A stretch of 64,000 nt of DNA, from assembly GCA_030681645.1 (NCBI GenBank), contig JAUXRX010000009.1, forward strand, positions 62,001-126,000. The letters run 5' to 3'. Made by a program: the position numbers and the translations under genes. Below the pieces are notes generated by a model. The model made no database searches. It saw nothing but the letters and a program-made list of their open reading frames with translations, and was not told the origin of the DNA. This DNA is from Archangium sp. (GTDB lineage Bacteria; Myxococcota; Myxococcia; Myxococcales; Myxococcaceae). Shown piece after piece: positions 6,335 to 62,307 of the stretch (position 1 is the stretch's first letter; the number at the start of each line of letters is the position of its first letter).

Positions 6335-7120
6335 TCAGCTCAACGTCGACGGCAGCGCCGCGTCGAGCGGGAGGAGATCGCGCGAAGCGAATACCCTCGC
6401 TGCGAACGCCGCCCCATCCGGCCGGTTCAACCGTTCGGCCCACGCCTTCACCACGTCGTCAGCGGCAGGCGACGGCTCGAAGCTCAATCGCGCCACCACC
6501 CGCGCGACGAGCCCCGGAGCGACCGACGCCGCCCGCAGCGCCGCGCTGAACTTCTCTGCGGCCTGGCCCATGCGGAAGGCACGCCGGTTGGCCTCGGCGA
6601 TGCGCTCACCTTTTCCCCCGAAGAGCGCGCCCAGGTGCTTCTCGAGCAGCTCGACGGGCAGGGGCAGGTGCGCCGCGGCCGCGCCCAGCACCACCATGTT
6701 CTGCGCCTTCATCGCCCCGGCCTTGCTGGCGAGCCGCGTCGCGTCCACCGCGATCACGCGGGGCAGGGTGAAGAGGAGGTCGAAGAGCTGCGGCAGGTCG
6801 GGGTAGTCGGCGATGTTCTTGAGCGGCGTGACGTCGGTGATCACCCACGCATCGGGGCGCAGCAGCGTCATGTAGCGCAGGCTCTCGAGCGGCTCGACCG
6901 ACAGCACCGCGCTGGCGCCGCCCTCCGAGATGAGATCGCTCGAGACGGGGCGATCCGACAGCCGCACCTGGGCCGAGACCGCGCCGCCGCGCTGGGCCAT
7001 GCCGTGCACCTCGGGCTGCTTGAAGTGCAGGCCCGCATCGACCGCGGCGTGGTCGACGATGTACGCGGTGGAGAGCACGCCCTGGCCACCGACTCCGCAG
7101 AGCACGAGATCGAAGTTCAT
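6335..7120 (-). CDS. iorB: indolepyruvate oxidoreductase subunit beta
   Basis: A 261-residue gamma-type subunit of 2-oxoacid oxidoreductases. The N-terminal LCGVGGQGVLSTAYIV is the typical glycine-rich opening, and EVHGMAQRGGAVSAQVR is the family signature near residue 38. With IorA it oxidises indolepyruvate and related aryl pyruvates to aryl-acetyl-CoA. The start overlaps the iorA stop by one base (TGATG), and the next gene begins 2 bp after its stop. This makes a tight three-gene operon iorA-iorB-synthetase. The length is slightly above that of archaeal IorB (about 200), with a C-terminal helical extension after about residue 190. Confidence 0.93.
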   Translation of the reverse strand: MNFDLVLCGVGGQGVLSTAYIVDHAAVDAGLHFKQPEVHGMAQRGGAVSAQVRLSDRPVSSDLISEGGASAVLSVEPLESLRYMTLLRPDAWVITDVTPLKNIADYPDLPQLFDLLFTLPRVIAVDATRLASKAGAMKAQNMVVLGAAAAHLPLPVELLEKHLGALFGGKGERIAEANRRAFRMGQAAEKFSAALRAASVAPGLVARVVARLSFEPSPAADDVVKAWAERLNRPDGAAFAARVFASRDLLPLDAALPSTLS

Positions 7121-27689: not shown

Positions 27690-28094
27690 CTAGGGCTCGC
27701 AGCGGCCGCCCATGCCCATCATCGACCTGGTGCAGGTCTGCTGCCGGCCCAGCCAGTCCTTCATGAGCTGGCAGTGATGCACCGCCTCGGCGCGGTTCGC
27801 GGCGGCGTCTCCGGCGCAGGCGGCGCCGGCGTGACGGTCGAGCTCGCTCTGCATCGAGCCACACATCGAGCGCATCCCCATCGGTCCGCTCATGCCCGTC
27901 ATCTGGCCGAGCCGGGGCCGCGCCAGCTCGTCGTAGCGCCGGTGCTCGTCGACGCAGTCTGCCGTCGTCTGCGATTCGTCCTGGTGCTGCGTCACGGCCA
28001 CCTCCAGCGCGGAGACCTGCTGTTGGTAGGCGGCGGCGTCCGGGCCGCAGGCGGTGAGGACGAAGGGAATGACCGCGATCAGGAGTCTGCTCAT
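27690..28094 (-). CDS. Met/His/Cys-rich lipoprotein, last gene of the copper operon
   Basis: A 134-residue lipoprotein with signal MSRLLIAVIPFVLTAC (Cys16). The mature part has TGMSGPMGMRSMCGSMQSEL, VHHCQLMKDWLGRQQTC and MMGMGGRCEP: Met, His and Cys clusters suited to Cu(I) or Ag(I). It overlaps the cusA stop by ATGA. By position it could be a periplasmic metallochaperone comparable in role to CusF, though the sequence is not CusF-like. The function is inferred from residue content and operon. Confidence 0.75.
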   Translation of the reverse strand: MSRLLIAVIPFVLTACGPDAAAYQQQVSALEVAVTQHQDESQTTADCVDEHRRYDELARPRLGQMTGMSGPMGMRSMCGSMQSELDRHAGAACAGDAAANRAEAVHHCQLMKDWLGRQQTCTRSMMGMGGRCEP

Positions 28095-31000
28095 GGGGTG
28101 GCCTCGGCCGGGTTCGAGCCCGGCTCGCTGGGAAGGATTTCTTCGGCGCCCGCCACCGACGGCGTTTTCCACAACAGGTAGACCGCTGGGTACACCAACA
28201 GCTCCAGCAGGAAGCTGGTGGCGAGCCCGCCCACCATCGGCGCGGCGATGCGCTTCATCAGATCCGCTCCCGTCCCGGTCGACCACATGATGGGCAACAG
28301 CCCCAGCATCGCCGCCAGCACCGTCATCGCCTTGGGGCGCACGCGCTTCACCGCGCCGTGAACGATCGCCTCGACCAGCTCCGCCCGGTTCCTGAGCGCG
28401 CCGCGCTTCTTCGCGTCTTCCAGCGAGAGATCGAGGAAGAGCAGCATGAACACGCCGGTCTCCGCGTCGAGGCCCATCAGCGCGATCAGCCCCACCCACA
28501 CCGCGATCGACATGTTGTACCCGAGCACCGTCAGCAGCAGCAGCGCGCCCACCGCCGAGAACGGCACCGCCAGCATCACCAGCCCCGCTTTGAAGGCCGA
28601 CTTCGTATTCAGGTAGAGCAACCCGAAGATGAGCACCAGCGTGAGCGGGAGGATCAGCTCGAGCCGCTCGCGCACCCGCAGCATGTTCTCGAACTGGCCG
28701 CTCCAGCCCAGCGAATAGCCCTGCGGCACCGTCACCCCGCTCGCCACCGCGGCCTTCGCCGCCGCCACGTAGCTGCCGATGTCGATCTTCGAGGTGTCGA
28801 AGTCGACGTACACGTAGCCAGCCAGCAGCCCGTTCTCGTCGCGGATCATCGATGGCCCGGTGGTCAGCTTGATGTCGGCGATCGCCTCGAACGGAATCTG
28901 CCCCTTGCCGTCCGGCAGCGGCACCAGCACCCGCTTGAGCGCGGGCAGATCGTCGCGGAAGTCGCGCGCGTAGCGAACGCTGATGCCGTAGCGCGCCCGC
29001 CCCTCCACCGAGACGCTCTGCACGTCGCCGCCGACCGCGGTCATCACCATCATGTTCGCGTCGTCCACCGAGAGGCCGTAGCGCGCCAGCTGATCGCGCT
29101 TGAGCTCGAAGTCGAGGAAGTAGCCGCCGGCCACGCGCTCGGCGAACGCGCTGCGGGTGCCGGGCACCTTCGCCACCGCCGCCTCGGTCTGCAGCGCGAT
29201 CGCCTCGATCGTCTCCAGGTTCTCCCCGAGGATCTTGATCCCCACCGGCGTGCGGATGCCCGTCGACAACATGTCGAGCCGCCCCTTGATGGGCATGGTC
29301 CACGCGTTCGACATGCCGGGGATCTGCAGCGCGTGGTTCATCTCCTCCTCGAGCTCGGCCTCGGTGATGCGATCTCTCCAGAAGGGCCGCAGCGGGCGCT
29401 TGAGCCACTCCGGCGCCCAGCCCGAGTACCAGCGGGGCTTCTCGCGCCACTGCGCCTCGGGCTTGAGGATGACCGTCGTCTCCATCATCGTGAACGGCGC
29501 GGGGTCGGTCGAGGTGTTGGCCCGGCCCGCCTTGCCGAACACGCGCGCGACCTCGGGGAAGCCCCGGAGGATCTTGTCCTGCGTCTGCAGCACCTGCTGC
29601 GCCTCGGCCACCGACATGCCCGGTGCGACCGAGGACGGCATGAAGAGCAGGGTGCCCTCGCGCAGCGGCGGCATGAACTCCGAGCCCAGGCCCAGGTAGA
29701 GCGGCACGCTGGTGGCCACCAGCAGCACCGCCGCCGCGATCACCGCGCGGGGGTGACGGAGCACGAAGCGGCACGGGCCTTCGTAGAGCCGGTGCAGGAC
29801 GCGGCTGATCGGGTGCTTCTCCTCGGCGCGGTACTGGCCCACCACCAGCATCGAGGCGAGCTTCGCCAGCCACCTCGGCTTGAACGTGTACGGGTCGACC
29901 CGCGCGAACAGCATGCGAATGGCGGGGTCGAGCGTGATGGCGAGGAACGCGGCGATGCCCATCGCCAGCGTCTTCGAGATGGCCAGCGGCCTGAAGAGCC
30001 GGCCTTCCTGGTCGACCAGGGTGAACACCGGCAGGAACGCCACGGCGATGACCAGCAGCGAGAAGAAGACGCCCGGCCCCACCTCCATCAGCGCCTCGAG
30101 CCGCACCTGGTGGAAGTCGCCCTTCCGCCCGTCCGCCATCCAGTGATGGATGCGGTTGTACGCGTTCTCCACCTCGATGATGGCGCCGTCGACCAGCACG
30201 CCGACCGAGATGGCGATGCCCGCCAGCGACATCACGTTCGCGTTGAGGCCCATCAGCTTCATCGGAATGAACGCCAGCGCCACCGACACGGGGATGGTGA
30301 TGATGGGCACGATCGACGAGGGGAAGTGCCAGAGGAAGACCAGGATGATCAACGAGACGATCAGGATCTCCTCGATCAACTTGTCGGTGACGGTGTCGAT
30401 CGCCGCGAGGATGAGCTCGCTGCGGTCGTACGTGGTGATCACCTCCACGCCCTCGGGCAGCGCGACCTCGCCCAGCTTCTGCTTCACCCGGTTGATCACG
30501 TTGAGCGCGTTCTCGCCCTCGCGCATCACCACGATGCCGCCCACCACGTCGCCTTCGCCGTCGAGATCCGCGATGCCGCGGCGCAGCTCGGGGCCCAGCG
30601 CCACGGTGGCCACGTCCTTCACCATCACCGGGGTGCCGCCCTCGGACTTGAGCACCAGCTGCTCGAGGTCTTCGATGCGCTTCACGTAGCCGCGGCCGCG
30701 CACCATGTACTCGCGCCCGGAGAACTCCACGAGCCGCCCGCCCACGTCGTTGTTCCCGGCGCGCACCGCGTCGATCACCTTCTGCAGGGGCAGCTCGAAG
30801 CCCGCCAGCTTCGTGGGGTCGACGTTCACCTGGTACTGGCGCACCTGGCCGCCCACCGTCGCCACCTCGGCCACGCCGGGCACGCTCTGCAGCGAGTAGC
30901 GCAGGAACCAGTCCTGGTAGCTGCGCAGCTCGTCAGACGAGTGTTTGCCGGTGCGGTCGACCAGCGCGTACTGGAACACCCAGCCCACGCTGCTCGCGTC

Positions 31001-31390
31001 GGGCCCCAGCTCGGTGCGCACCCCGGCGGGCAGCTGCGAGGTGATCTTCGAGAGGTACTCCAGCACCCGAGAGCGCGCCCAGTAGGGGTCGGTGCCGTCT
31101 TCGAAGATGACGTAGACGAACGAGTAGCCGAAGTCGGAGAAGCCCCGAATCGCCTTCACCCGCGGCGCGCCGAGCAGCGAGGTGATGATGGGGTAGGTGA
31201 CCTGGTCTTCCAGGAGATCGGGGCTGCGGTCCCACCGCGAGTAGACGATCACCTGCGTGTCCGAGAGCTCGGGCAGCGCGTCGAGCGGAATGGTCCGCAT
31301 CGAGTACACGCTGTACGCCAGCGCCACGATGGCCGCGGCGATCACGAGGTACCGGTTCTCGGCGGAGAACCGGATGATCGCCTTGATCAT
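28091..31390 (-). CDS. cusA: CusA-type heavy-metal RND efflux pump
   Basis: A 1099-residue inner-membrane RND transporter with 12 spans and two large periplasmic loops. The HME-RND proton-relay Asp lies in VGVLVDGAIIEVENAYNRIH. The three Met positions that bind Cu/Ag in CusA appear conserved: LLFMPSSVAPGMS, FTMMETTVILKP and RLDMLSTGIRTPVGIK. This points to monovalent copper/silver rather than Zn/Co. It is slightly longer than E. coli CusA (1047), with an extra WYSGWAPEWLKRPLRPFWRD loop. Overlaps cusB (ATGA) upstream and the Met-rich lipoprotein downstream. Confidence 0.95.
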   Translation of the reverse strand: MIKAIIRFSAENRYLVIAAAIVALAYSVYSMRTIPLDALPELSDTQVIVYSRWDRSPDLLEDQVTYPIITSLLGAPRVKAIRGFSDFGYSFVYVIFEDGTDPYWARSRVLEYLSKITSQLPAGVRTELGPDASSVGWVFQYALVDRTGKHSSDELRSYQDWFLRYSLQSVPGVAEVATVGGQVRQYQVNVDPTKLAGFELPLQKVIDAVRAGNNDVGGRLVEFSGREYMVRGRGYVKRIEDLEQLVLKSEGGTPVMVKDVATVALGPELRRGIADLDGEGDVVGGIVVMREGENALNVINRVKQKLGEVALPEGVEVITTYDRSELILAAIDTVTDKLIEEILIVSLIILVFLWHFPSSIVPIITIPVSVALAFIPMKLMGLNANVMSLAGIAISVGVLVDGAIIEVENAYNRIHHWMADGRKGDFHQVRLEALMEVGPGVFFSLLVIAVAFLPVFTLVDQEGRLFRPLAISKTLAMGIAAFLAITLDPAIRMLFARVDPYTFKPRWLAKLASMLVVGQYRAEEKHPISRVLHRLYEGPCRFVLRHPRAVIAAAVLLVATSVPLYLGLGSEFMPPLREGTLLFMPSSVAPGMSVAEAQQVLQTQDKILRGFPEVARVFGKAGRANTSTDPAPFTMMETTVILKPEAQWREKPRWYSGWAPEWLKRPLRPFWRDRITEAELEEEMNHALQIPGMSNAWTMPIKGRLDMLSTGIRTPVGIKILGENLETIEAIALQTEAAVAKVPGTRSAFAERVAGGYFLDFELKRDQLARYGLSVDDANMMVMTAVGGDVQSVSVEGRARYGISVRYARDFRDDLPALKRVLVPLPDGKGQIPFEAIADIKLTTGPSMIRDENGLLAGYVYVDFDTSKIDIGSYVAAAKAAVASGVTVPQGYSLGWSGQFENMLRVRERLELILPLTLVLIFGLLYLNTKSAFKAGLVMLAVPFSAVGALLLLTVLGYNMSIAVWVGLIALMGLDAETGVFMLLFLDLSLEDAKKRGALRNRAELVEAIVHGAVKRVRPKAMTVLAAMLGLLPIMWSTGTGADLMKRIAAPMVGGLATSFLLELLVYPAVYLLWKTPSVAGAEEILPSEPGSNPAEATP

Positions 31391-32694
31391 CGGTGCGCCT
31401 CATGAGCGCCGGGAGCCGACGCGTCCTTCCCTCCGATGCGCGCGAGCGAGGCGCGCAGCCGCGACTCGGAGTCGACGAGGAAGTTCGCGCGGGTGATCAC
31501 CGCTTCACCTTCGGTGAGGCCTGAGATGACCTCGGTGAAGTCGCGCCCGGTCTCCCCCGTCTCGATGCGTCGCGGCTCGAAGCGGCCTTCACCGCGCGCC
31601 ACGAAGACCACCTGCTGCGTGCCGCTCTGCACCACCGCGTCGCTGGGCAGCCGCAGCGTCTCCCGGCCCGCGCGCGCGAGCGTCACGTCGCCGTACATCT
31701 CGGGGCGCAGCTCGCCCTGGGGGTTGGTGAAGGCGAGCCGCACCTTCGCGGTGCGCGACTTCGGGTCGAGCACCGGGTCGATGAAGAGCACCTTGCCCTG
31801 CCAGGTGCGCCCCGGCCACGCGTCGAGGTGCAGCGCGGCGGTCATGCCCGGCGCCACGAAGCGCAGCTCGGTCTCGTAGATGTCGGCCAGCACCCAGACC
31901 GTGGACAGGTCGACCACCTCGAAGGGCATCGCGCCCATCTCGACGCGCGAGCCTTCGACGATCTCCTTCTTCGTCACCACCCCCGCGACGCTGGAGAAGA
32001 AGGTGACCACGCTCGAGGCCGTCTTCTCGCGGTCGAGGCGCTCGAGCTCGCCGTGCGGCACGCCCCAGAGCTCGAGCTTCTTCCGGGCCGAGGCGAGCAT
32101 GCGGCCGCCGTCGCCTTCGACCTTCGCCGCCAGCAGGTACTCGTGCTCGGCGTTGAGCAGCTCGGGGCTGTAGAGCGAATACAGCGGCTGGCCCTTGCGC
32201 ACTTCCTTGCCCACGTAGTCGACGAAGAGCTTCTCCACGAAGCCGGCCACCTTCACGTTCACGCGCCGCACGCGGGTCTCGTCGAACGAGACGCGCGCCA
32301 CCGTGCGCAGGCTGCCGCCCACCACGCCGCGATCGACGTTGGCGGTGCGCAGGCCGATGAGCTGCTGCCGGGTGGGGTCGATGTCCACCAGGCCCAGGCC
32401 GTCGACCTCCGAGGTGGCCGCCGCAGGGTCGGGCGCCTTCGTTTCCTCGGCCCCTCGACTCCGCTCGGGGGGAACGGCTGCCTTCACCAGCTTCATGCCG
32501 CAGATGGGGCAGGTGCCGGGCCCGTCCTTCACCACGGCGGGGTGCATCGGGCACACGTACGTCTCCACCGGCGCCTGCGCGTGCGCGTGCGGGTCAGCCC
32601 CGCCGTTGGCGACGAGCAGGCCCGCGGTGGTTCCGCCGGCCAGCAGCGCGACGGCGAGGAAGGTGAGGCGGGTGCGGCTGAGCGTGACGGCCAT
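31387..32694 (-). CDS. cusB: CusB-type periplasmic adaptor with heavy-metal-binding domain
   Basis: A 435-residue membrane-fusion protein. An N-terminal anchor (FLAVALLAGGTTAGLLVA) precedes an HMBD metal ribbon, YVCPMHPAVVKDGPGTCPICGMKL (key CPMHP and CPICGM). Barrel-sandwich and beta-barrel domains follow (GFVEKLFVDYVGKEVRKGQ; VVDLSTVWVLADIYE). The start is at 32694, 2 bp after the cusC stop. Between the HMBD and the barrel, residues VPPERSRGAEE are encoded by a family B repeat (32451-32476) inserted in frame in a flexible linker. The HMBD and operon identify a Cu/Ag system. Confidence 0.93.
   Translation of the reverse strand: MAVTLSRTRLTFLAVALLAGGTTAGLLVANGGADPHAHAQAPVETYVCPMHPAVVKDGPGTCPICGMKLVKAAVPPERSRGAEETKAPDPAAATSEVDGLGLVDIDPTRQQLIGLRTANVDRGVVGGSLRTVARVSFDETRVRRVNVKVAGFVEKLFVDYVGKEVRKGQPLYSLYSPELLNAEHEYLLAAKVEGDGGRMLASARKKLELWGVPHGELERLDREKTASSVVTFFSSVAGVVTKKEIVEGSRVEMGAMPFEVVDLSTVWVLADIYETELRFVAPGMTAALHLDAWPGRTWQGKVLFIDPVLDPKSRTAKVRLAFTNPQGELRPEMYGDVTLARAGRETLRLPSDAVVQSGTQQVVFVARGEGRFEPRRIETGETGRDFTEVISGLTEGEAVITRANFLVDSESRLRASLARIGGKDASAPGAHEAHR
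32451..32476. repeat. family B repeat inside cusB
   Basis: CCCCTCGACTCCGCTCGGGG followed by GGAACG. The same unit occurs outside genes at 60037-60062, inverted at 50272-50297 and as a divergent pair at 41440-41503. Here it lies within the cusB linker and keeps the frame. Confidence 0.8.
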
Positions 32695-32696
32695 GG

Positions 32697-33977
32697 CTAC
32701 ATCCCCGTCGGGGCAGAGGAGGTGGAAGGAGAGGAGAGGGCGGCGCGCGCGGTGGCGACCTCCTCGGGCGAGAGCTCGTCTTGCGCGATGGCGAGGCGCC
32801 ACGCGTCGCCGAGCACCTGCAGCGACGCTTCCACCTCGGCGATGGAGACGCTGGTCGCGCCGAGCACGTCGGCGAAGGTGGCGCGGCCGATGGCGTACTG
32901 CGCGACCGTGCTCTCCGCCGCGGTCTCGGCCTGGGTGAGCAGCCCGCCCGCGTAGCTCTGCCACACCGCGCTCAAGGCCTTGAGCGACTCGGCGCGTTGG
33001 TGGGCGCGCAGCGTGAGCAGCTGTTCCACCGCCTCCACGCCCTGCGTCGCCGCGTCACGCTGCGCGTCGGCTTCCGCGAGCGCCCTCGACTGCCGCGCGC
33101 CCGCGAAGACGGGGAGCGGCACGCCGAGGGTGAGGGTCCACATCGGGTCGAGCCGGCCGCGCACCATCACGCCGGCCGACACGGAGAGATCCGGAAAGTA
33201 CGAGCGGCGCGCGAGCGCGGCCGAGGCCTGGGCGCGGGAGATGCCGGCGCGCGCGGCGAGCAGCTCGGGGCTGTGCTCGCGGGCGAGGGTGAGCGCCTGC
33301 TCGAAGCTCAGCAGCGCGGGCAGGGTGCTCGGGGACGCCGAAGTCTGAATGGCCGTGTCCAGCGGGCGGTGACGGAGGCGGTTGAGCGCCTGCACCTGCA
33401 GCTGCTCCTCGGCCTGGAGCTGGAAGCGGCGCTGCGAGACGCGGCCCAGCTCGACCTGCGCCCGCAGCACCTCGGCCTGCGAGCCCGCGCCCGACTCGGA
33501 GCGCACGCGCGCGACCTCGACCAGGCGGGTGTTGAGGGTGATGAGCTTCTCCAGCAGCGCGCGCCGGTCCCGGACCAGCTGCAGCGCGAGGTAGCCGCGG
33601 CGGACCTCGGCGATGGTCGAGAGGCGCACCCGCTCGGCGACCAGCTCGCTGAGCTTCACCTCGCTCTGCGCCACCTCGGCGCGAAGCCCGGTCTTCCCGG
33701 GGAAGGGGAAGGTCTGCGAGGCCATGAACGAGACCCAGCTCATCTCCATCACGCCCACGTTCCACTTGTTGAAGCTGTCGTTCTGGACCCCCACCTCGAG
33801 CATCGGCTCGGCCCAGGCCTCGGCTTGCGGCACCCGCTCCTTCGCGGCGCGGAGCTCTGCGGCGGCCCGGGCCAGCTCGGGCCTCGCCTCCAGCGCCTGC
33901 TGCACCAGCTCTGGCAGCTCTTCCGCAGCTGCCCAGGTCGCCGTGCAAACCAGCGCTATTGCTGCACTTCGCCACAT
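32697..33977 (-). CDS. cusC: CusC-like TolC-family outer-membrane channel
   Basis: A 426-residue TolC-family protein with signal peptide MWRSAAIALVCTATWAAA. Long amphipathic helices carry two OEP repeats: LVQQALEARPELARAAAELRAAKE and FEQALTLAREHSPELLAARAG. The aromatic/Met-rich strand KWNVGVMEMSWVSFMASQTFPFPGK lies in the first half. It lacks an obvious lipobox, unlike E. coli CusC. First of the cusC-cusB-cusA genes; the YHS-HMBD gene ends 38 bp upstream. Confidence 0.9.
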   Translation of the reverse strand: MWRSAAIALVCTATWAAAEELPELVQQALEARPELARAAAELRAAKERVPQAEAWAEPMLEVGVQNDSFNKWNVGVMEMSWVSFMASQTFPFPGKTGLRAEVAQSEVKLSELVAERVRLSTIAEVRRGYLALQLVRDRRALLEKLITLNTRLVEVARVRSESGAGSQAEVLRAQVELGRVSQRRFQLQAEEQLQVQALNRLRHRPLDTAIQTSASPSTLPALLSFEQALTLAREHSPELLAARAGISRAQASAALARRSYFPDLSVSAGVMVRGRLDPMWTLTLGVPLPVFAGARQSRALAEADAQRDAATQGVEAVEQLLTLRAHQRAESLKALSAVWQSYAGGLLTQAETAAESTVAQYAIGRATFADVLGATSVSIAEVEASLQVLGDAWRLAIAQDELSPEEVATARAALSSPSTSSAPTGM

Positions 33978-34015
33978 GCTCCTGTAGGCGCGCCGAAGGC
34001 CTGGCGTGACACCGG

Positions 34016-34306
34016 TCAGGTCGGCAGGGAAGGGAGGGCTTGCCGCGGCTCCAGGGCGAGGCTGCAGATGGGGCAGCTCGGCGCGGAGCGCACGATGCCG
34101 GGGTGCATCAGGCAGGTGTACGTCTGCCGGCCTTCGGGCGGCGTGGGCGGTGGCGCCCAGGCGAGGACGCGCGCGGGGTCATTCAGGAAGAGGTCGCGGC
34201 ACCGGGAACTGCAGAAGCTGTAGACGATTCCGGCGTGCTCCGCCTGCACGCGCCGGGTCGAGGCAGGGTCGATGTTCATTCCGCACACCGGGTCTGTTGC
34301 ATCCAT
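34016..34306 (-). CDS. YHS plus heavy-metal-binding-domain protein
   Basis: A 96-residue cytoplasmic protein with two metal modules. The N-terminal YHS domain is DPVCGMNID...YSFCSSRCRDLFLNDP, and the C-terminal HMBD-like ribbon is YTCLMHPGIVRSAPSCPICSLAL. In the ribbon the usual CPMHP/CPICGM are altered to CLMHP and CPICSL, losing a Pro and a Met. The ATG at 34306 is selected because the YHS motif starts six residues later. As leader gene of the copper operon it may act as a chaperone or sensor. The 183 bp upstream show no promoter I can name. Confidence 0.82.
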   Translation of the reverse strand: MDATDPVCGMNIDPASTRRVQAEHAGIVYSFCSSRCRDLFLNDPARVLAWAPPPTPPEGRQTYTCLMHPGIVRSAPSCPICSLALEPRQALPSLPT

Positions 34307-34489
34307 GAGCGCCTCCGCTGCTGGGTAGGACCCCCTCAGTCGCAAGCGACATGCCGCACTGCGAGTCTCGCTGGTTGCCTCCGGAGCCGCGGGCGATCCG
34401 TTCGAATTGATGGAATCACAGCCGGGAACTCCCCAATCCGGCGAGTCGCCTCGGCGTCAGGCCGGAGTCGAGCAATTCCGCAGGCACAG

Positions 34490-35815
34490 TCACCCCTGCT
34501 GAAGCGAGGCGTCGGCCACGCGGAGCGCATTGGCGGCCAGGGTGAGGCTGGGGTGGCGATCGGTCGCGGCGGGGACTCCCGAGCCGTCTGCGAGGAACAC
34601 GCGGGGGAAGTCGCGCAGCGAGCCGTTGGCTCGGACGTCCCCGGTGCAGGTGCCGGTCTCGTGCCCGCCCGAGCCGTAATCGAGCGCGTCGTAGATCTGG
34701 TACCACTTGCCCTGCTTGCCCACGAGCGACTCGCCGATGCGCTTGCAGTGGGCGTTCATCTCTTTGGCCAGGCCCAGCTCCCACGCGGTGTGCTTACGCT
34801 TCACGAAGCGCGGCTGGGGGCGGCCCAGGCTGTCCTTCGAGGCCGGGTCGAGCACGCACTGCCGCGGGAGATGCGGGTCGGTCTCGCCCATGGCGAACAC
34901 CACGTAGAACGAGTGCTGCTTCGCCGTCTCAGGGGTGAAGCCGAGCGCCTTCACGTCATCGGGGTCGAGGTGCTCGAGCGGCGTGGGCCCCCGCACCTCG
35001 GTGGTGAAGCGGTACTTCGCGCCGGGTGAGGGCGCCACCACCGCCGAGGGATCCGCCCCGTCGCGCGGATGACCGGCGTCGGGCCGGCGCTCGGTGATGC
35101 CGATGACGCCGGAGATGAGGTGATCGGCGTAGGCGATGCGGGTGCGCTGACCGGTGCCGCGGCTGGCCGCGACGATGCGCGCGGTCTCGATGGGCGAGGC
35201 CGCGAGGATCAGCTGATGGGTCTCGAGCGTCTGGCCGCCCTCGAGGTGCACGCGCACGCCTTCGGCGTGCTCTTCGAACGACAGCACCGTCGCTTCGCGC
35301 ACGTGGCGCGGGCGCAGGTCGAGCGCGGTCATCATTCTGCGGGTGCCGGGCTTCACCGCTTCGTGCTTCACCAGCGTGTCGAGGCCGAGCTTCGCGAGGT
35401 GGCGATGGAGCACGCCGCGCTTGCCCTTCTTCACCGCGAGCCGGCGCTCGGCCAGCTCGAGCCACGGGCGCAGGTGCTCCATTTCCGTGGGCCACCCGGC
35501 GTCTTGCGCGCGGCGGGCGAGGAAGTAGTCGTCGGTGGGGCGCATCATCCACCCGCCCCACAGCAGCGTGCGGCCACCCAGCGCGCGGACGCGGTGCCAG
35601 TCGTAGCCGCGCGGCCCGAGGAAGGACCACCTCTGCGGGTCGACCTTCGTGAGCGTGCGGGTGCTGCGCTGAAAGCCCGCCACGTCGGTGGGCAGCGGGC
35701 GCTTCTTCGTGGGACCCGCCTCGAGCAGCAGCACCGAGCGGCCGGCTTTGGCCAGATGTTGTGCTGCCAGGGTTCCGCACAGACCGCCGCCGACGACGAT
35801 GGACTCGAAGCGCAT
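34490..35815 (-). CDS. GMC-family FAD oxidoreductase (short form)
   Basis: A 441-residue flavoprotein. The dinucleotide motif is SIVVGGGLCGTLAAQHLAKA with LLLEAG after it. An FAD-contacting segment is VRALGGRTLLWGGWMMRP, and the C-terminal GGHETGTCTGD and HPSLTLAANALRVA are GMC/gluconate-dehydrogenase-like landmarks. It is shorter than most GMC enzymes (500-600). The substrate is unknown: an alcohol, sugar or, given the upstream mini-gene, a modified peptide are options. It is preceded on the same strand by a 12-bp-stem hairpin and a candidate 12-14-residue peptide gene, all within 120 bp. Confidence 0.88.
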   Translation of the reverse strand: MRFESIVVGGGLCGTLAAQHLAKAGRSVLLLEAGPTKKRPLPTDVAGFQRSTRTLTKVDPQRWSFLGPRGYDWHRVRALGGRTLLWGGWMMRPTDDYFLARRAQDAGWPTEMEHLRPWLELAERRLAVKKGKRGVLHRHLAKLGLDTLVKHEAVKPGTRRMMTALDLRPRHVREATVLSFEEHAEGVRVHLEGGQTLETHQLILAASPIETARIVAASRGTGQRTRIAYADHLISGVIGITERRPDAGHPRDGADPSAVVAPSPGAKYRFTTEVRGPTPLEHLDPDDVKALGFTPETAKQHSFYVVFAMGETDPHLPRQCVLDPASKDSLGRPQPRFVKRKHTAWELGLAKEMNAHCKRIGESLVGKQGKWYQIYDALDYGSGGHETGTCTGDVRANGSLRDFPRVFLADGSGVPAATDRHPSLTLAANALRVADASLQQG

Positions 35816-35849
35816 GGTGATTCCTGAAAGAGGTGTCGCGGGGAAGAGA

Positions 35850-35876
35850 CGGCGGCTGGGTGCAACCCAGCCGCCG
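35850..35876 (-). terminator. 12-bp-stem hairpin between mini-peptide and GMC gene
   Basis: CGGCGGCTGGGT (35850-35861), loop GCA, then ACCCAGCCGCCG (35865-35876): a perfect GC-rich stem. In the leftward transcript it lies 14 nt after the peptide stop and about 35 nt before the GMC start. The following U-run is weak (TCTCTTCC), so it may be a partial terminator or processing/stabilising hairpin that gives the peptide more mRNA than the enzyme. Confidence 0.7.
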
Positions 35877-35890
35877 AGAACGTCGGAACG

Positions 35891-35935
35891 TCAGATGCCG
35901 CAGTGGCGAATCTTGAGCTTCTTCTTCATGTGCAC
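35891..35935 (-). CDS. candidate 12-14-residue peptide gene
   Basis: A strong ribosome-binding site (GGGGAGGTGA on the minus strand, about 35938-35947) precedes GTGCACATG and the short frame MHMKKKLKIRHCGI, then TGA at 35891-35893. Starting at the GTG (35935) gives 14 residues; at the ATG (35929), 12. The peptide has a Lys/Arg-rich head and a C-terminal His-Cys-Gly-Ile. Its spacing to the GMC gene, with a hairpin between, mimics precursor-peptide operons. It could equally be a leader peptide controlling the GMC gene. Translation is unproven; the evidence is the ribosome-binding site and position only. Confidence 0.42.
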   Translation of the reverse strand: MHMKKKLKIRHCGI

Positions 35936-36004
35936 GGTCACCTCCCCTGCCCGGAAGCGCCGCTGGGCAAGTGGGTAGGCCCGTGTGGTGGAGGGCGTGA
36001 CAAG

Positions 36005-36080
36005 AAAAGGGGACAGGCTACTTATTGCGCCGTCTCGCGGAGCTCCGCGAGACGGCGCAATAAGTAGCCTGTCCCCTTTT
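36005..36080. mobile_element. perfect 76-bp palindrome, family C copy 1
   Basis: Two 38-nt arms, exact reverse complements with no loop. Outer ends are AAAAGGGGACAGGCTACTTA and its complement; the inner part is TTGCGCCGTCTCGCGGAG. The outer 19 nt GGGGACAGGCTACTTATTG recur at 62222-62240. No transposase is present, so it looks like a non-autonomous MITE/REP-type element. It stops 2 nt before the stop codon of the membrane-protein gene. Confidence 0.8.
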
Positions 36081-36082
36081 TC

Positions 36083-36631
36083 TCAGCGCGCGATGAGGCG
36101 GCGCACGGCCCACGGCAGCGCGCCCGCGGCGTAACCGGCACCGAGGCCGATGACGCCGGAGTACCCGATGCACGCGCAGCCCATCGCACCCGTCAGCAAC
36201 GAGACCGCAGACGCGCCCGCCCAGAAGCGCCAGTCGAGCCCGCGCTTCGTGGCGAACCACGAGACCGCGAGCCCGGCCACCACGCCGCCGGTGATGCAGG
36301 CTGGCAGGCACCACGTCGAGCAATGCCCGCCCGCGCACGCGTGCCCCTGGTTGGCCACCAGCGCGAAGGTGAGCGGAATGATGCCCGCGAGCAGCCCGGG
36401 CAATACCGCCCGGTGCATCGTCTGGCCGCGCCAGAGCAGGAACGCGCCGCTCAAGAAGAGCAGCGAGCCGAAGATGAACGCCGAGCTCGGGCGGCGACCG
36501 AGCGCTGCCGCGGCCACCATCAGCAGCAGCGCAGGCGCGAACCCCAGCAGGCTGCGACCGGCGCGCACCAGCTCGTAGCGGACGCGGGCGCGGCGCTCGA
36601 GCAGGTCGAGGTCGATGTCAGTCGAGTCCAT
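36083..36631 (-). CDS. Cys-rich membrane protein, candidate anti-sigma factor
   Basis: A 182-residue protein. A charged N-terminal segment (DIDLDLLERRARVRYELVRAGR) precedes six hydrophobic spans. The loops and spans hold paired Cys residues (HACAGGHCSTWCLPAC; MGCACIGYSG). Its start overlaps the end of the ECF sigma gene by 14 nt, with an AGGAGG site inside that gene. This arrangement and topology recall NrsF/DUF1109 anti-sigma factors, whose Cys residues sense metals or oxidants. The homology is not certain; the role is inferred from coupling. Confidence 0.72.
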   Translation of the reverse strand: MDSTDIDLDLLERRARVRYELVRAGRSLLGFAPALLLMVAAAALGRRPSSAFIFGSLLFLSGAFLLWRGQTMHRAVLPGLLAGIIPLTFALVANQGHACAGGHCSTWCLPACITGGVVAGLAVSWFATKRGLDWRFWAGASAVSLLTGAMGCACIGYSGVIGLGAGYAAGALPWAVRRLIAR

Positions 36632-37142
36632 AGAGCCTCCTGAAGGTATCGCGCAGCCGGGTCAGGGCGCGCTCCCGGCGTTTGCGCAGCGTCGCGCCCC
36701 CGGCCGAAGCGGCGGTGTCCCAATAGGTGGCGGTGAGGGTCTCCTGGTCGGCGCTCGAGAGCTCGCCCATGGCGTGCATCGCCGCGCTCACCAGCAGCTT
36801 CTGCTCGAGCTCGTCGGCCGTGGCGCCGCCGTCGCTGAGCTGCGGCTCTTCGGCGCTCTCCTTGAGGCGCTGCTGGCGCTTCATCATCGTGCGGCATTCC
36901 CACGCGGCGATGCCCAGCGCCCAGGGCAGGGCGGGCCGCTTCTTGTCGTACTCACCTGCCCGTTCGAGGATCTTCATCATCGCCGCCTGGGCCGCGTCTG
37001 CGGCGTCGGCCTCCGCGTGCACCATGCGTTGACACACCCTCAGTGCGGGCGTCCAAAGCGCCCGGAACAACGGGGAGAACGCGGCTCGATCGCCGTCGGC
37101 CAGCTTTCCCATCAGCACGTCGACCTCCGATGGTTCCGCCAT
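36618..37142 (-). CDS. ECF RNA polymerase sigma factor
   Basis: A 174-residue sigma-70 family protein with region 2 (FSPLFRALWTPALRVCQRMV...DAADAAQAAMMKILERAGEYD) and region 4 (AMGELSSADQETLTATYWDT...LRKRRERALTRLRDTFRRL). The lengths fit ECF factors. It starts 1 nt after the methyltransferase stop and overlaps the downstream membrane gene. It probably responds to an envelope or metal signal released by that partner. Confidence 0.87.
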   Translation of the reverse strand: MAEPSEVDVLMGKLADGDRAAFSPLFRALWTPALRVCQRMVHAEADAADAAQAAMMKILERAGEYDKKRPALPWALGIAAWECRTMMKRQQRLKESAEEPQLSDGGATADELEQKLLVSAAMHAMGELSSADQETLTATYWDTAASAGGATLRKRRERALTRLRDTFRRLYGLD

Positions 37143-37143
37143 T

Positions 37144-38028
37144 TCACTGACCCTGTAGGCGCGGGGAGGGCAAGGCGTGACTCCCGAGCAGCGGGGGACC
37201 CTTTCTGACGATCAACTGCAGCTCCCGCCGCAGGTGAGTCGCTTTCGCCAGGCCCGTCCACACCTTGAGGGCGCCGAAGCGCAGCCATTCGTACGGGGCC
37301 GCGGCCCCCTTCGCCAGGCGGCGGCGCAGCATCGCCTTGTCCACCGAGACCACCTCGAGCCCGGCGTCGCGCGCCCCCCGGCTGAGGGTGGGCACGTCGT
37401 AGTAGACGTGGTGTTGCCAGCCGAGCCGCTCGGGGTGGAAGTAGTTGCCGCGGCGCCGGTAGCCCACGTCGGGCACGACGATGAGCGCGACGCCGCCGGG
37501 CCGGAGCACGCGGGCGATCTCTGCCAGCCCCTGCTTCGGGGTGCGCACGTGCTCGAGCGTGTGCTTGGCGGTGACGAGGTCGAAGCTCGCGTCGCGGAAG
37601 GGGAGCTCGGTGAGCGAGGCCGCGGCGGTGGAGAAGCCGCGCTGCCTGCCCAGCCCCGCGGCGTACGCGGCGTAGTCGATGCCGGTGGGCGACAGGCCCA
37701 GCGAGGCGGCGGCGGCGAGCACGTAGCCGGCGCTGCAGCCGACATCGAGCGAGGTCTTCGCGTGCGGCGCGAACTCGAGGCACATCAGGAGTTGGCGGCG
37801 GCACTTGGCCACCCGGTGATCCCAGCGCTTCAGGTACTGCGCCTGGCCATTGAGGAAGTAGCCGGCGTCGTAGCGCTTCGCGAGGCGGGTGGAGAGGGAC
37901 GGATCTTCTTCGGACTTGTAGACGAGGCCGCATGCGGCGCACTTCGAGAAGCGCAGCTCGGGGAACTCGATGAGCGTGGTCCGCTCGGTCGACGCGCAGA
38001 TGGGACAGGCGGAGAAGAACGGGCTCAT
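37144..38028 (-). CDS. class I SAM-dependent methyltransferase with N-terminal zinc ribbon
   Basis: A 294-residue protein. The N-terminal CPICAST...CAACGLVYKS ribbon is followed by a Rossmann methyltransferase: motif I SLDVGCSAGYVLAAAASLG, then FDLVTAKHTLEHVRTPKQGL and VLRPGGVALIVVPD. The His-rich HHVYYD segment and the zinc ribbon resemble C-methyltransferases of deoxysugar or surface-glycan pathways. The ATG at 38028 is preceded by family A repeat sequence. It is tightly followed by the ECF sigma gene (1 nt). Confidence 0.87.
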   Translation of the reverse strand: MSPFFSACPICASTERTTLIEFPELRFSKCAACGLVYKSEEDPSLSTRLAKRYDAGYFLNGQAQYLKRWDHRVAKCRRQLLMCLEFAPHAKTSLDVGCSAGYVLAAAASLGLSPTGIDYAAYAAGLGRQRGFSTAAASLTELPFRDASFDLVTAKHTLEHVRTPKQGLAEIARVLRPGGVALIVVPDVGYRRRGNYFHPERLGWQHHVYYDVPTLSRGARDAGLEVVSVDKAMLRRRLAKGAAAPYEWLRFGALKVWTGLAKATHLRRELQLIVRKGPPLLGSHALPSPRLQGQ

Positions 38029-62217: not shown

Positions 62218-62307
62218 AAATGGGGACAGGCTACTTATTGCTAGCCGTTGGCGCCGCTGGACGAGAGGCTCGAGAGACGGCGAGCAATAAGTAGCCTGTC
62301 CCCATTT
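62218..62307. mobile_element. family C palindromic element, copy 2
   Basis: AAATGGGGACAGGCTACTTA followed by TTGCT (62218-62242) is an exact reverse complement of 62283-62307. The 40-bp interior keeps AGACGGCG, shared with the 36005 copy. It ends directly at the ATG of the next gene. Confidence 0.8.

Follow-up and report, generated by a model that had tools for sequence, protein, structure and literature searches.

Methanobactins, which are made by an MNIO enzyme together with a partner and also lack a Sec signal peptide, are short leader-core peptides with cysteines that occur, like the peptides described below, in a copper context. Polycysteine leader ORFs, short Cys ORFs lying upstream of an operon, act as attenuators, and CruR, similarly placed, senses copper and is a DUF2946 protein with a CXXC motif that acts through Rho (PMC9426467). 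The bufferins, copper RiPPs of the MNIO (DUF692) type, are Cys-motif precursors that handle excess copper, and the genes tallied for bufferin clusters in parts of PMC12452194 include those of sigma factors and NrsF. In the myxobacterium Myxococcus xanthus, copper genes are under the ECF control of CorE, which has a Cys-rich domain and for which the relevant sections of PMC3107203 give no adjacent anti-sigma factor as found. Mycofactocin loci have a GMC enzyme, MftG, beside a peptide gene, and a further branch of GMC enzymes comprises fructose dehydrogenase, FAD-glucose dehydrogenase and pyranose oxidase.

The locus considered here lies in a 64,000-nucleotide stretch of the genome of Archangium sp., the whole of which is called the window, and comprises the following features.

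37155-37181, minus strand: promoter-like motif GTCACGC-N14-GCCTAY before the sigma gene, suggesting autoregulation
36618-37142, minus strand: ECF sigma factor, 174 aa (Sigma70_r2, 34.2 bits against a cut-off of 24)
36083-36631, minus strand: putative anti-sigma factor, a 182-aa Cys-containing membrane protein with several hydrophobic segments, its gene overlapping the end of the sigma gene
35975-36001, minus strand: GTCACGC-N14-GCCTAC, the promoter-like motif (ECF type) belonging to the peptide unit; its GTCACGC and GCCTA blocks are unchanged at 6/6 peptide loci
35938-35947, minus strand: ribosome-binding site GGGGAGGTGA, with the 7-base stretch GGAGGTG identical in 6/6 relatives
35891-35929, minus strand: peptide ORF MKKKLKIRHCGI, 39 nt, 12 aa, a putative RiPP-like precursor, the same ORF being present at six loci
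35850-35876, minus strand: terminator-like hairpin CGGCGGCTGGGT-TGC-ACCCAGCCGCCG, with a perfect 12-bp stem and a 3-nt loop
34490-35815, minus strand: GMC-superfamily flavoenzyme, 441 aa, with an N-terminal FAD motif, proposed as the peptide-modifying enzyme
34016-34345, minus strand: YHS-domain protein, 109 aa, with a heavy-metal-binding stretch slightly below cut-off
33984-34010, minus strand: promoter-like motif GTCACGC-N14-GCCTAY before the efflux operon, the start codon lying 6 nt beyond
32697-33977, minus strand: outer-membrane efflux protein, CusC-like (PF02321, E 4e-40)
31387-32964, minus strand: periplasmic adaptor, CusB-like, with a heavy-metal-binding domain (PF16576, PF19335)
28091-31390, minus strand: CusA-type RND pump (TIGR00914 above cut-off, 1012.8 against 701.45 bits)

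The succession given in the preliminary description, namely a ribosome-binding site and short ORF, a 12-bp hairpin 14 nt further on and then a 441-residue GMC enzyme on the minus strand, agreed with the sequence and coordinates when these were checked. The window system resembles the logic of the bufferins in its sigma factor, its Cys-motif peptides and its copper context, without those of their defining parts that were tested. In place of the MNIO enzyme it has a GMC flavoprotein, and no MNIO (DUF692) match was obtained among ten window genes and ten neighbours in relatives; its precursors, spanning 12-43 aa, have no apparent Sec signal by eye; and its putative anti-sigma protein gave no significant Pfam match, NrsF included. 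The mycofactocin systems differ in their core and in their radical SAM maturase, none being present among the genes searched, in line with the preliminary description; MftA, MftB and MftC were likewise absent among the ten window genes searched. No methanobactin-homologous parts were found at the window locus. In contrast to CruR, the window-type peptide also stands alone. The window sigma factor differs from CorE in having only two Cys residues, none in its C-terminal third and hence no C-terminal Cys-rich domain, and in the overlapping gene for a membrane protein.

The 12-codon ORF recurs in relatives with its reading frame preserved. The peptide pattern matched once in the window and in none of 100 shuffles. 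ATG was taken as its start because an upstream GTG is in frame at only three of six loci (G000, G003 and G004, as against G005, G009 and G030, where it is out of frame). Judged by eye, with no predictor run, the 12-aa peptide is basic, without a hydrophobic stretch and without a Sec signal; it contains a single Cys codon, and the core of the window clade has no Ser, Thr or Tyr. Used as query against 60 close genomes (own included), the GMC protein gave seven strong matches (E <= 1e-47, own among them), the best match below these being 1.6e-8. Six of the seven loci have MKKKLKIRHCGI or MKKKIKVRHCG[I/L] upstream of or near the GMC gene, and at the seventh, G002, the contig ends inside the GMC gene and the region beyond is not readable. 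A degenerate peptide pattern was found in 6/144 genomes (own included), once each and always beside a GMC gene of the window subfamily, its control giving 0 matches in the 144 genomes. A looser pattern, run on one genome per species over 84,980 species, a scan from which the own genome was possibly excluded by design, matched at five places, all in the same five relatives, which are MAGs; phyla other than Myxococcota were covered by this looser pattern alone, the GMC profile having covered phylum genomes.

Across the six peptide ORFs, five of the 12 sense codons vary, all changes being synonymous or I/L/V swaps: two codons vary synonymously only, two show an L/I or I/V exchange, and the last combines an I/L exchange with a synonymous change. 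The flanks are far more variable, with the exception of GTCACGC, GCCTA and GGAGGTG (6/6 identical). The short ORF is taken to be a conserved coding unit tied to the window-type GMC enzyme, and its existence, conservation and pairing with the GMC subfamily are, in our view, beyond reasonable doubt. The alternative that the ORF is a chance frame or an annotation artefact draws on its having a mere 12 codons in G+C-rich DNA, but is barely credible given its recurrence, in frame, and the 0 matches in the pattern controls. A K/R-rich short ORF ending in HCG-x, which had been predicted upstream of Myxococcota GMC homologues, is thus conserved in the close relatives, while the distant ones have related cores.

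The flavoenzyme shows the N-terminal FAD motif, the C-terminal catalytic His region and the fold of the GMC superfamily. His385 is present in 12/12 subfamily members and His421 in 9/12, with proline instead in G152:C163, G192 and G167; these two residues are presumed to be the GMC catalytic His pair. The Pfam gathering score was reached by NAD_binding_8 alone. Profile searches and Foldseek placed the enzyme nearest to the fructose dehydrogenase large subunit, FAD-glucose dehydrogenase and pyranose oxidase, the nearest solved relatives by both profile and fold, from which it differs in its identity of about 16%, its shorter length (441 aa) and the lack of an apparent signal peptide. The AlphaFold model, built from six sequences, is moderate (pLDDT 69.3, pTM 0.75), residues 35-88, which take in part of the FAD region, being below 50. 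Since the protein begins at its Rossmann strand, it is taken as cytoplasmic. Its best NCBIfam models were three MftG families, at 35.6 (TIGR04542), 24.9 and 23.9 bits against cut-offs of 400, 387.45 and 300, respectively, and scores so far below cut-off rule out mycofactocin membership; the kinship with mycofactocin loci suggested in the preliminary description thus gives way to a closer one with the fructose and FAD-glucose dehydrogenases and pyranose oxidases. Plasmid relatives of the enzyme were also considered (44 records, all below 60% identity, and about 25-28% among the 20 listed) and were set aside as ordinary GMC enzymes.

A GMC match at 1e-12 was obtained in 132/195 phylum genomes, and generic GMC enzymes are therefore common. 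The window subfamily is far narrower: a GMC profile retrieved 12 of the 195 genomes at E <= 1e-30, and a 12-row profile gave 13 loci in 12 genomes at E <= 1e-142, separated by a clean gap from the next match at 1.6e-43. The distant Myxococcota homologues in this set are accompanied by longer Cys peptides, of the forms ...SLKVRHCQIRCCK, ...RCCGVIRCCGVIRCCGVIRQ (three repeats) and ...CCKISCCK, as found at the following loci.

G194: MKLLQKVRLKNIKVMTALNKSLKVRHCQIRCCK
G138: MKLLQTKKLKNVKVEKKSRKGEVRCCGVIRCCGVIRCCGVIRQ, preceded by an MFS transporter gene
G192: MKKLFPKPVTTPVEAPRPVPESTCCKISCCK
G152:C163: MNSVLNHKPKNVQVQQPTPAPQGTGCCKISCCK, with an EamA transporter gene next and the GMC gene beyond it

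The SLKVRHC of the G194 peptide mirrors the KLKIRHC of the window peptide, and one distant precursor holds three tandem RCCGVI cores. The distant precursors have a common core and a partly common leader (N-[IV]-x-V); this leader motif is present in 4/8 aligned peptides, and the 12-mers contain a minimal leader at most. The pattern CCx[IV]xCCK-stop occurred four times, in 2/195 genomes (control 0), and two of the four peptides (MKILKRPLSNVTVEPAQPTPAGGKTGCCKISCCK and MKKLFSKPVATPVEKPVNVPDTTCCKITCCK) come from orphan genes that are not near a GMC locus; the orphan copy at G152:C146 is closed by a terminator that points towards a convergent gene. The pattern (H/C)C-x-(I/V)-x-CC, searched in 14 genomes, matched at six places, five of them known peptides and the sixth, in G030, a chance hit, and is weak on its own because its control also matched twice, both times in G194. 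Family models added little for the six longer peptides, NCBIfam returning only tryglysin for one of the six (E 0.32) and Pfam only weak chance hits (best E 0.14).

The 13 subfamily loci include 12 that are readable, and at ten of these a precursor with a conserved or repeated Cys core stands near the candidate modifying enzyme, the arrangement expected of a RiPP system: directly upstream on the same strand at eight, with an intervening gene at one (G152:C163) and convergent at one (G003). No peptide was found near the GMC gene at G167 or G152:C43, and the genome of the latter has two peptides elsewhere. At G167 a methyltransferase gene (L071 8701-9378) overlaps the start of the listed GMC ORF. 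Under the same loose criterion, 18 control GMC loci from below the gap gave candidates upstream on the same strand at 2/18, and at 4/18 when either strand and any position in the locus were allowed; two of the control candidates are one and the same ORF in two related genomes. Compared with 10/12, Fisher p is 1.2e-4 for the former and 0.0022 for the latter, values to be read in the light of a peptide criterion framed after the positives had been seen; by the loosest count (anywhere, either strand) the positives become 11/12, the extra one being a spurious frame inside the G152:C43 GMC gene. With the patterns used, no such peptide turned up outside genomes that have the window GMC subfamily, and the pairing persists across three GMC clades.

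Between peptide and enzyme stands the terminator-like hairpin that the preliminary description had placed there. It begins 14 nt past the peptide stop and has a dG of -25.3 kcal/mol, a value reached by 0/60 shuffles, for which the scanning grid was coarser than for the real sequence, to the advantage of the latter; the whole 151-nt region folds only slightly better than shuffles (z -1.51, with 13/200 shuffles folding as well). On the same coarser shuffle grid, the best hairpin past the stop beat all 60 shuffles at 9/12 peptide loci, 59/60 at G009 and 55/60 at G192, and was unremarkable at G192:C50, where 29/60 shuffles were as good. The stem sequences differ from locus to locus. Rfam returned only weak microRNA-family matches below gathering scores, which were taken as chance hits on palindromes.

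Strict matches to GTCACGC-N13/14-GCCTAY number three in the 10.2-Mb own genome (control 0); all lie in the window and precede the ECF sigma gene, the peptide and the outer-membrane gene of the CusCBA-type pump. A looser form of the motif gave one further window match, at 6832, inside coding sequence. Over seven genomes there were 23 matches (control 0), 18 of which were assigned by position or by eye, three to sigma, six to peptide, one to GMC, three to second membrane protein, three to outer-membrane efflux and two to secreted or lipoprotein-like ORFs; one efflux-gene and both secreted or lipoprotein-like assignments were made by eye only, and the remaining 5/23 may be chance matches. The motif copies of G009 and G030 stand before the sigma gene, before the peptide and before another copy of the membrane-protein gene. 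Among 60 genomes, the window membrane protein has close relatives (E <= 1e-88) in the six peptide-bearing ones alone, with weaker relatives in 18/60. Because the motif precedes the sigma gene itself, and in view of this co-distribution, we infer that it is read by the window ECF sigma factor. In G005, where the sigma, membrane-protein and Cus genes are on another contig than the peptide and GMC genes, no strict match was found at the former.

Genome G003, the most instructive case, has a different arrangement, in which the peptide ORF is the window's base for base but the GMC enzyme is of a different clade, with 34% identity to that of the window and 52-55% to those of G194, G152:C43 and G138. 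The two genes are convergent and form separate units, each with its own motif copy, and for this reason the peptide would not act in cis on the GMC gene there; the pair is nevertheless kept together and under one motif. The earlier proposal of a single transcript for peptide, hairpin and enzyme accordingly stands in part: at the window the genes do follow one another on one strand, but the peptide has its own promoter-like motif (35975-36001) and the terminator-like hairpin precedes the enzyme.

Further observations concern the surroundings of the motif. Several genes past GTCACGC-N14-GCCTAY start 6-7 nt beyond it (window 33977-34010; L112, L117 and L121), which suggests leaderless transcripts; the peptide, unlike these, is preceded by a leader that contains a strong ribosome-binding site. 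Directly behind the GMC gene of G009, G030 and G002 there is another, diverged copy of the gene for the Cys membrane protein, with its own motif (L043 10166-10690, L044 5968-6510 and L045 1195-1656). Modules of sigma factor, membrane protein and CusCBA without an adjoining peptide or GMC gene were observed at L152 (G009:C129) and L153 (G005:C183); G009 contains two such modules. A near-perfect long palindrome with arms GGGGACAGGCTACTTATTGCGCC (window 36006-36079) separates the peptide promoter from the membrane-protein gene. When up to 2 mismatches are allowed, the genome has eight copies of the arm, which form facing pairs in three cases; window 62222-62303 contains a similar pair. It looks like a small mobile palindromic element.

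The metal-efflux operon noted downstream in the preliminary description is real, and its pump, of the Cu/Ag type, is linked to the peptide. Against solved structures the pump matched CusA best (983.7 bits, with the CzcA-like ZneA at 423.9), and its methionines align with the three metal-site methionines of CusA, whose numbering we took as given; family score (CusA/CzcA) and conserved Met triad together mark a CusA-type Cu/Ag RND pump. The best NCBIfam model of the adaptor is CusB, below cut-off (176.5 of 390 bits); the true start of the adaptor probably lies some way inside the ORF as listed. CusCBA-type genes adjoin the peptide-GMC unit in G000, G004, G009 and G030 and the GMC gene in G002; the order is CusC-CusB-CusA-GMC at G152:C43, and CusB and CusA come after the GMC gene in G167. 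A cupredoxin-like 93-aa protein (L066 6077-6358) is encoded near the CusCBA-GMC genes of G152.

It is proposed that the locus encodes a RiPP-like system of metal stress, probably of Cu(I)/Ag(I), in which the GMC enzyme oxidises the Cys core of the peptide, a reading to which about even chances are given. The ECF sigma factor would be held by the Cys-containing membrane protein and released by metal, whereupon it would turn on three units with one promoter type, namely sigma itself, the peptide and the CusCBA pump. The GMC enzyme would be expressed from the peptide promoter through a leaky terminator, the peptide being produced in excess, and would oxidise in the cytoplasm the Cys-containing core (H/C)C-x-(I/V), its Cys thiol perhaps becoming a thiocarbonyl or a product thereof; the resulting small metal-binding or redox-active molecule would buffer or export metal. 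HMF oxidase is active on primary thiols, as stated in parts of PMC7414962, so GMC oxidases can oxidise thiols, and thiocarbonyl formation by such oxidation is the subject of a paper named in the references of that article. Together with the lack of Ser, Thr and Tyr in the window-clade core, this activity makes Cys oxidation the most economical proposal. Several observations count against the RiPP-like reading: the peptide of the A clade has a single Cys and hardly any leader, a GMC gene occurs without a peptide found in G167 and none lies near that of G152:C43, the bearers found are few (GMC in 12/195 phylum genomes), and the sigma-Cus unit of G005 is on another contig with no strict motif match. 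GMC enzymes classically use alcohols as substrates, and a core without Ser, Thr or Tyr is a further point on that side.

Three other readings bear on the same evidence. The peptide might need no modification and serve under metal stress as a small redox or Cu(I)-binding peptide of the cytoplasm, with the GMC enzyme co-regulated and acting on another substrate; its Cys/His content, the shared promoter-like motif and pump linkage, the orphan peptide genes without an adjoining GMC gene and the peptide-less GMC gene of G167 would all fit, but the restriction of such peptides, with the patterns used, to genomes with the window subfamily and a pairing that persists across three clades, including the swapped clade of G003, speak against it, and a one-Cys 12-mer alone would be a poor chelator, so that this reading is considered doubtful. 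That the peptide is a leader, a sense also raised in the preliminary description, is unlikely. Its translation would set hairpin read-through into the GMC gene, by copper sensing as in CruR, a known copper-sensing uORF (PMC9426467), or by Cys supply as in the polycysteine attenuators, and a short ORF, a nearby hairpin and a downstream enzyme do occur in this order in 8/10 peptide-bearing loci. An attenuating ORF should, however, always lie upstream of the gene it controls, and the convergent, separately controlled genes of G003 argue strongly against this; the orphan of G152:C146 with its terminator facing a convergent gene, the single Cys codon of the window peptide, the tandem repeats of the whole core and the conservation of the peptide sequence itself, beyond its mere reading, weigh in the same direction. 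Maturation of the peptide into a redox cofactor used or regenerated by the GMC enzyme would parallel MftG, a mycofactocin dehydrogenase linked to respiration in passages of PMC11778925, whose three families are the best NCBIfam models here; with all three scores far below cut-off, neither a radical SAM nor a carrier protein found in the genes searched and no Val-Tyr core, it is judged quite improbable.

Generalised from the preferred RiPP-like reading, a new class of ribosomal peptides in Myxococcota is put forward tentatively, as a possibility somewhat short of even: a GMC flavoenzyme would oxidise Cys or His-Cys cores (e.g. thiol to thiocarbonyl) to give small metal-binding compounds under ECF control; the precursors would span forms with a single core (12 residues) up to three cores, and further copies would stand as orphans at other places in the genome. 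A literature search found no description of a GMC enzyme with such a peptide, most subscription journals being outside its scope, so that absence from print is not claimed; GMC oxidoreductases are mentioned in PMC7099791, on fungal RiPPs, and in PMC13083261, on coral microbiomes. With a peptide of a length suited to synthesis and a soluble-looking 441-aa enzyme, the proposal lends itself to direct testing. If it is true, a flavin-dependent enzyme of the alcohol-oxidase type would join the small set of RiPP maturases, the 12-residue precursor would be among the shortest known, peptide modification would be linked to metal efflux under a single sigma factor, and genome mining would gain a signature that was missed by the family models tried.
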